Virus record (IMG/VR): IMGVR_UViG_3300009156_000046
Coordinates: 1-44,152 of that record
Source of the DNA: a virus
Length of the DNA stretch: 44,152 bases
Strand: one strand, 5' to 3'
The position numbers were made by a program, and so were the translations under genes. The notes under the pieces are model-generated. The model made no database searches, was not told the DNA's origin, and was given only the letters and a program-made list of their open reading frames with translations. Below are positions 4,774-44,023 of the stretch, piece after piece (the stretch's first letter is position 1; every line of letters begins with the position of its first letter).

Positions 4774-4961
4774 CGTCCTGCCTCGATCTTGAGCCTCAGA
4801 TCGGCAGCTCCGCGCGCTTGGTCCTCAAACGTGGCACGGAACGTCTGCCAGTGCTTCGACGTTTCGGCCAACATCCGATAGTGCGCGTCGGCGATCTTGA
4901 GCGCATCCGCGATCGTGTCGATTTCTGCGTCCGTGAAGGTGTGGAGTTCTTTGACAGTCAT
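4770..4961 (-). CDS. Hypothetical helical protein, 63 aa
   Basis: Short helical protein starting at ATG 4961 with an ATGA overlap to the upstream gene. It has two predicted helices (TDAEIDTIADALKIADAHY and HWQTFRATFEDQARGAAD) and no Cys. No family recognised. Retained because of its coding-like composition and its exact fit in the overlapping gene chain. Confidence 0.65.
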   Translation of the reverse strand: MTVKELHTFTDAEIDTIADALKIADAHYRMLAETSKHWQTFRATFEDQARGAADLRLKIEAGR

Positions 4962-5227
4962 GGTTTGCTCCGCAGTTGACGCATCATGGCTCTGAATTCA
5001 TCTTCTTGAATCTCAGTCGCGAGCGGCCCGTGGTGAATAGTGCCGAGCGCGTCAAGCGTCACAATCGACAACTGGTCACGCTCGCTACAGCGAAGACACA
5101 TGCGTTGCGCTAGAAACGGGCGGTCAACACGAACCACTCGGCGAGGATTCGTCGGATACCACTCGCTCCATCGATGCGGACGAACGAGGCAGAGCCAAGC
5201 CGTCAACAGCCTATACAGATAGCTCAT
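4958..5227 (-). CDS. Hypothetical protein, 89 aa
   Basis: Second gene of the XRE operon; ATG 5227 overlaps the repressor's TGA. The first 20 residues are moderately hydrophobic (YLYRLLTAWLCLV) but interrupted by Arg and His, so I do not call a membrane segment. A CLRC pair occurs near residue 45. Co-translation with the repressor suggests an early role, but nothing specific can be assigned. Confidence 0.65.
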   Translation of the reverse strand: MSYLYRLLTAWLCLVRPHRWSEWYPTNPRRVVRVDRPFLAQRMCLRCSERDQLSIVTLDALGTIHHGPLATEIQEDEFRAMMRQLRSKP

Positions 5228-43551: not shown

Positions 43552-43804
43552 CCGACTCGAGATGCCACAACGACAGGGGACGGCCGGACCTGATCCGACC
43601 GTGCGACCTCGGTAGGGGCGAGCACTAGGCCGTTTGCTCGGCGCAGCCGGGACGGTAAGCCCTGAAGGCAAAGTGAGGCAACGCAGCAAGAAAACCAGAG
43701 AGCCATCCGTAACTAGCAAGTGGCAATGGTGCTCGGTCCCCGCTTGACGCGAACGCCGGCATAGGACTAGGCGTGACAGCCCGGAGAGACGGGCCTTCCC
43801 TGAA
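43552..43804 (+). ncRNA. Candidate structured RNA of about 250 nt
   Basis: The only gap of this size in the rightward arm, where all other genes overlap or abut. Pairings visible by eye: 43580-43588 with 43594-43602 (eight pairs, one mismatch), 43615-43625 with 43729-43741 (eleven pairs with a two-base bulge, closing a 100-nt domain), 43629-43632 with 43639-43642, 43652-43655 with 43707-43710, 43753-43757 with 43770-43774, and GCCCG/CGGGC (43779-43783 with 43790-43794) with a GAGAGA loop. Unpaired A-rich tracts (GCAAGAAAACC) lie between stems. AGCCCGGAGA is reminiscent of a B12-box, but other cobalamin riboswitch parts are not clear, so no class is assigned. Confidence 0.55.
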
Positions 43805-44023
43805 ATGAAACCGAACCAGCATCACCCGCTCGGACTAACGCTGTTTAGCCGCGCCAGAATCTACGCCCAATTCGTAACGGCCGTCCGACGCTGCAAGCGC
43901 CCAGGCTGCGACCGACGCATCGGAAGCGATCGACGCGCCGACTCGGAATACTGCTCAAAACGCTGCCAGCAGGTCGAAGCACAGAAACGCCACTACGCCA
44001 AGCGAAAAGCGAAACGCGGATAA
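43805..44023 (+). CDS. Zinc-finger basic protein, 72 aa
   Basis: ATG 43805; no standard ribosome site. Contains CKRPGCDRRI and YCSKRCQQVEAQKR, the 'C-x4-C ... YCS-x-RC' finger common in small phage and bacterial DNA-binding proteins, then a very basic tail (YAKRKAKRG). Its transcript would carry the RNA element just upstream. Possible regulator. Confidence 0.65.
   Translation: MKPNQHHPLGLTLFSRARIYAQFVTAVRRCKRPGCDRRIGSDRRADSEYCSKRCQQVEAQKRHYAKRKAKRG

Follow-up and report, generated by a model that had tools for sequence, protein, structure and literature searches.

Positions 43744–43795 on the plus strand of the window, i.e. the entire stretch of 44,152 nt of viral DNA that was analysed, hold a conserved RNA element of 52 nt, which, according to our analysis, is probably a cis-acting RNA antiterminator that is put-like in its mechanism and represents a new family. 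The whole core is defined by its homologues and by a covariance model, R1, which was built from 26 phage loci selected for having the P3 stem, the window being excluded, and which detects the window element with 58.7 bits (E = 2.7e-14). The members of this family consist of two helical parts, show covariation, have a preferred orientation and, in E. coli prophages, are located between promoter and terminator. An RNA that is co-directional, lies behind promoters and ahead of terminators and occurs in long untranslated tRNA transcripts is antiterminator-like, and thus we infer antitermination as the function of the family, the copy in the window presumably being active as well.

When the right end of the window was compared with annotated phages by blastn, only short matches were obtained, several of which fall on the same 25–50 bases (43745–43795), and this shared core corresponds to unannotated gaps in the genomes of the unrelated phages CcrColossus, CcrPW, Itty13, RcCWillis and MinM2. 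A first search pattern (GGCGTGACAG, 2–7 bases, GGAGAGAC), which did not require pairing around the latter motif, matched at least 119 viral stretches as well as 93 stretches in bacterial genomes, where about 37 would be expected by chance according to our own estimate. R1 yielded 160 matches elsewhere in phage loci (119 and 41 in two locus sets) and scored above threshold in 19 of the 21 records tested, with one to three copies per genome. In two broader scans only U-GACA and the third hairpin were fixed and helix I was left free. In total, the broader motif is present at 257 non-redundant phage sites. The phages that carry the element infect Proteobacteria and Cyanobacteria. The family is absent from Rfam, as neither the window nor 20 GAGAGA-type and 20 GAAAGA-type loci gave a match above the gathering threshold, and it is undescribed in the open-access literature searched, in which no family with such a motif was found.

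Judged by its sequence, the window element is an H-type pseudoknot, followed by a GACA linker and a hairpin with a GAGAGA hexaloop. In helix P2 the 5′ strand ACGCC (43753–43757) would pair with the 3′ strand GGCGU (43770–43774), and compensatory variants of this helix are found in relatives (ACCGC/GCGGT, ACGAC/GTCGT, ACGTC/GACGT, ACATC/GATGT and ACACC/GGTGT). As the P1 hairpin around the loop GAACGCCG (43749–43760) encloses the 5′ strand of P2, the layout is that of an H-type pseudoknot. P1 is assigned by a register test at the level of the family and is weak in the window, where only two Watson-Crick pairs can be formed (43749–43750 with 43759–43760), with possible C·A and A-U pairs outside. 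The linker (43775–43778) is invariant, which is mostly by construction as GACA is contained in the search patterns, and it is found again in additional copies within the leaders of E. coli prophages. Finally, P3 (GCCCG-GAGAGA-CGGGC, 43779–43794) comprises 5 bp and a purine hexaloop, and its assignment relies on stem pairing and compensatory changes. A 16-mer identical to window positions 43745–43760, TGACGCGAACGCCGGC, occurs twice in CcrColossus, at about 2000 and 2225, i.e. 225 nt apart; both copies are followed by differing third hairpins and lie below the threshold of the model.

Several tests address these helices at the level of the family. P3 has at least 4 bp in 115 of the 139 viral-side matches to the first pattern, in which pairing was not forced, and compensatory changes are present at 3 of its 5 pairs in the alignment of the 26 loci, which had been chosen for having the stem. 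The motif ACG(C/T)C is found no more than 60 nt upstream in 89 of 112 non-redundant sites, as compared to 10 in a control interval, and P1 in its best register shows 42% Watson-Crick pairs versus 28% in shuffled sequences (sd 2%, z ~7). When G-U pairs are permitted, a 5′ strand for P2 is often found by chance through short complementarity (25 of 27 sites versus 19.5 in shuffled sequences); therefore, a strict Watson-Crick test was used instead, which identified an exact upstream complement in 36 of the 178 sites lacking GGCGU, whereas 10.0 (sd 3.1) were obtained with shuffled sequences.

The family comprises two subtypes. Among 221 non-redundant sites GGCGU is present in 43 of the 110 with a GAGAGA loop and in none of the 111 with a GAAAGA loop (P = 5e-16). 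In the GAAAGA type helix I is one base shorter, leaving a U unpaired before GACA (z = 6.8 versus 0.5 for the other register), and it frequently takes the form of a plain hairpin whose sequence is free. Hence, base 4 of the hexaloop tracks the type of the helix junction, and this association suggests that the loop may contact the junction.

The element forms the 3′ part of a longer stretch (43552–43804) that sits between two small plus-strand ORFs of 57 and 72 amino acids and that the original prediction had regarded as a single non-coding structured RNA of about 250 nt with six stems, built around a long-range stem of 11 bp. In agreement with this prediction, no long plus-strand ORF accounts for the stretch and the Rfam scan it had called for gave no match above threshold; relaxing the threshold added nothing but chance matches (SNORA73, SOX2OT), and the stretch contains no tRNA. 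The single fold, however, has the energy of shuffled sequences (z = 0.22; 113 of 200 shuffles do equally well). The long-range stem (43615–43625/43729–43741) does appear in the predicted fold; the domain enclosed by it is only marginal, however (z = −1.33; 20 of 200 shuffles are as good). This stem, treated as the core, lacks independent support. As the stretch folds no better than shuffles and the domain of the 11-bp stem is marginal, the six-stem picture is unsupported. Among relatives of the neighbouring genes no homologues of positions 43552–43743 were found: two relatives of the window with 92% identity stop before this region, and in relatives of the 57-aa ORF the element is absent. The plus-strand segment 43552–43743, including the 11-bp stem and a hairpin at 43580–43602, is thus near shuffles in its folding, without detected homologues and unsupported as a conserved RNA.

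That all 250 nt form one large structured RNA, e.g. a riboswitch, a packaging RNA or an inhibitor of host defence, is consequently hardly credible, even though in the predicted fold the element is immediately preceded by the 11-bp stem, since the fold is that expected of shuffled sequence and homologues are detected for the 3′ 52 nt and not for the 5′ 190 nt. Taken together, the notion of an unassigned structured RNA was right in spirit and wrong in extent: it applies to the last 52 nt, which are conserved, covarying and absent from Rfam and constitute the genuine conserved RNA, but not to the remainder. Downstream, the first ORF (43805–44023, plus strand, from the ORF list) encodes 72 amino acids with cysteine pairs; no relative of it was found in viral contigs, and it has no PHROG match. 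The contig ends at 44152, about 350 nt beyond the element.

Across phages the element is found in different genomic contexts. It is located at the early operon, after the repressor, in mEp390, Medea1 and Cruim01, upstream of holin/terminase genes in IME1369_02 and CS01, and among tRNAs in phiCbK, CcrColossus, MD18 and Pokken. A tRNA lies within 400 nt of 40 of the 257 sites, as compared to 14 random points, and in 40 of 40 cases the nearest tRNA is co-directional. As a crude ORF caller is unreliable for orientation in GC-rich DNA, the strand of the tRNAs and annotated records were used; exceptions in orientation are RcCWillis and Alexa, where the elements adjoin genes on the opposite strand. 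Within 600 nt downstream of the elements there are 20 terminator-like sites on the same strand versus 7 on the opposite strand, and same-strand sites are about equally frequent upstream and downstream (23 versus 20) and about three times as frequent as opposite-strand sites on either side. Promoters are not enriched in the 150 nt upstream of the elements in a mixed set of metagenomic phages. Two or three tandem elements, 80–160 nt apart, occur in many metagenomic phages (loci L013, L029, L034, L070, L097 and L122). One metagenomic phage (L036, minus strand) carries a Pistol ribozyme (1577–1649; 44 bits) about 130 nt downstream of its element (1774–1836), suggesting that several RNA signals may be combined in one leader, and in another locus (L273, minus strand) a HEARO RNA (657–896) precedes a GAAAGA-type element by about 50 nt.

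This distribution bears on what the element might do. In many cases a start codon follows the element after 20–60 nt (according to the crude ORF caller, the same-strand ORF is 60 nt away in the median), as would be expected of a 5′-UTR element that acts on the translation of the next gene or on mRNA stability, riboswitch-like control included. Such a role is nevertheless quite improbable, as the element also occurs in tRNA arrays without an adjoining ORF and the downstream gene is not shared. The riboswitch suggested originally is unsupported for the same lack of a common downstream gene, copies being found in tRNA arrays, before terminase operons and at the starts of early operons. Packaging, scaffold or anti-defence RNAs, which had also been proposed, fare no better: the presence of one to three copies per genome, the co-direction with nearby tRNAs and the placement in operon leaders are better explained by a signal carried on a transcript. 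A further alternative is an RNA-processing element, i.e. a self-cleaving ribozyme or a site for an RNase, by which tRNAs and mRNAs in long phage transcripts would be separated. The frequent and always co-directional occurrence in tRNA arrays, the compact pseudoknot and the nearby Pistol ribozyme of one phage would be in line with this role, which we nonetheless regard as improbable because no Rfam ribozyme family matches and because tandem, promoter-proximal copies at early-operon starts, together with the low copy number, fit cleavage less well.

In E. coli, 440 of 5,426 complete genomes (8%) carry a prophage leader with the element. Three divergent prophages (L475, L478 and L479) share the same order, i.e. 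a cI-like gene, a PL-like promoter, tandem elements, an intrinsic terminator and the early operon, which reaches the integrase in L475 and L478. The two elements are 50 nt apart, the first beginning about 15 nt past the expected transcription start, and, in general, the copies in E. coli prophages follow a PL-like promoter at a distance of 15–70 nt and precede an intrinsic terminator. The terminator is located at about +150 in L475 and at about +450 in L478 and L479, and in two of the three prophages additional copies follow beyond it. Downstream of the terminator, short motifs (e.g. GAGGAAAGACCAA and GGAGACCAATCC) are also repeated in the three leaders; these motifs may be degenerate or partial copies of the element.

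We propose that the nascent RNA would fold while the operon is being transcribed, giving helix I, which would be an H-type pseudoknot in the subtype of the window, the GACA linker and the 5-bp hairpin with its GARAGA hexaloop. HK022 put is held by the zinc-binding domain of the β′ subunit of RNA polymerase, and in the same way the folded module may be held by the elongating host RNA polymerase, presumably by direct contact and without the help of a phage protein. The bound polymerase would then be kept from pausing or terminating, so that genes or tRNAs beyond terminators may be transcribed.

The position that the element occupies in the E. coli prophages is that of putL, and equally that of nutL, which raises the alternative of a protein-dependent antitermination site, where an N-like peptide or Nus factors bind the GARAGA hairpin and are loaded onto the polymerase. 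The hairpin is comparable to boxB of λ nut in having 5 bp and a purine-rich loop, and it is likewise found downstream of PL. We nevertheless consider this alternative unlikely. BoxA-like octamers are not enriched upstream of the elements (4 versus 3 in controls, of 257 sites), the annotation of the L475, L478 and L479 stretches shown lists no N or N-like gene, and phages whose hosts differ widely have retained the same GACA-GARAGA core, in contrast to the fast divergence of N proteins. The element itself was rejected as a λ nut site, since a boxA next to boxB is not enriched; it also differs from nut in the GARAGA hexaloop with its fixed G-C closing pair, in the additional upstream helix and the GACA linker, and in being conserved across unrelated hosts.

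Returning to an antiterminator made of RNA only, it is quite possible, and we put it forward tentatively, that the elements constitute a widespread new family of processive antiterminators with the arrangement helix I-(U)-GACA-GARAGA, which bind polymerase directly and do so via a recognition module unlike that of put. Tailed phages of Proteobacteria, Cyanobacteria and other bacteria might well use them in early operons, late operons and tRNA arrays, and the division into GAGAGA-pseudoknot and GAAAGA-plain-helix subtypes could then reveal a tertiary contact between hexaloop and junction.

Protein-free modification of RNA polymerase by an RNA has been observed in a small number of lambdoid phages, as exemplified by HK022 put. 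If the element is put-like, RNA-only antitermination would be a common trait of tailed phages whose hosts belong to many bacterial phyla. Such phages may rely on it much more frequently than is apparent from the few cases known, and it would be present as prophage leaders in 8% of the complete E. coli genomes. Moreover, it would explain read-through in the absence of N or Q, both at terminators and in untranslated tRNA arrays. In addition, synthetic operons could be equipped with the element as a short, portable antiterminator, and its sequence would allow operon starts that are unannotated in phage genomes to be recognised.

Among known systems, Pistol and HDV-like theta ribozymes are small structured RNAs that occur in intergenic and tRNA-rich regions of phages (PMC10879173). 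The element resembles them in size, in being structured and in its location, and Pistol and the GGCGU subtype both contain a pseudoknot. Its conserved sequences are different, however, it has no match to an Rfam ribozyme and it sits at the starts of early operons. As an Rfam ribozyme or riboswitch it was rejected since no family matches.

Of the RNA-only systems, HK022 put has been studied best. The numbering used here is that of the cryo-EM study of put, in which A3-G7 of HK022 putL pair with C15-U19 and enclose the loop A8-A9-C10-G11-G12-C13-G14 (PMC9378689). Together with this numbering, the listed pairs A9-G35 and G12-U32 imply that putL 10–14 pair with 30–34 and that stem II starts at G36 (PMC9378689). 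In the sequence we located putL as AGACG-AACGGCG-CGUCU-linker-CGUCGG-stem II, and the loop of HK022 putR is AACGGCC. The put RNAs (putL and putR; also HK75, O276, the putL-like RNA of HK639 and phiEt88) and our element are cis RNAs of 50–75 nt with two helical domains and, in E. coli phages, are situated just downstream of an early promoter; in L475, L478 and L479 the element lies in the leader of the early operon, past PL and before the terminators, as does put. In the GGCGU subtype, as in put, the loop of a small hairpin (GAACGCCG in the element; AACGGCG or AACGGCC in put) pairs with a strand that immediately precedes the second stem, AACG being common to both loops, whereas in the GAAAGA subtype this hairpin-loop pseudoknot is replaced by a simple helix.

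The element also differs from put. The loop comprises 8 nt rather than the 7 of put, the junction is A-U rather than A·G, and instead of the stem II of put, with about 37 nt and an irregular internal loop, there is a 16-nt stem with a fixed hexaloop, i.e. a short GARAGA hairpin preceded by the GACA linker. In addition, the element is found far beyond lambdoid phages and also in late operons and tRNA arrays. R1 gave no match at put in the HK022, HK75, HK639, phiEt88, S9-5 and CobraSix loci, and blastn with HK022 putL retrieved only put-bearing enterophages and chance matches. HK639 also carries an annotated 'M3-like RNA' after cII (4911–4970), another putative antiterminator RNA; this was rejected as a relative, as the motif is absent from it and its sequence shows no likeness to the element. 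The docking motif around R77 of the polymerase, CGKYKR, is shared by the hosts examined from Proteobacteria, Cyanobacteria and Firmicutes; the residue equivalent to R77 is replaced in Treponema and Chloroflexi hosts. As the model finds no put RNA and the second stems differ, the element is not filed under the put family; on the basis of these sequence comparisons it would rather be put-like by its placement and, in part, by its architecture.
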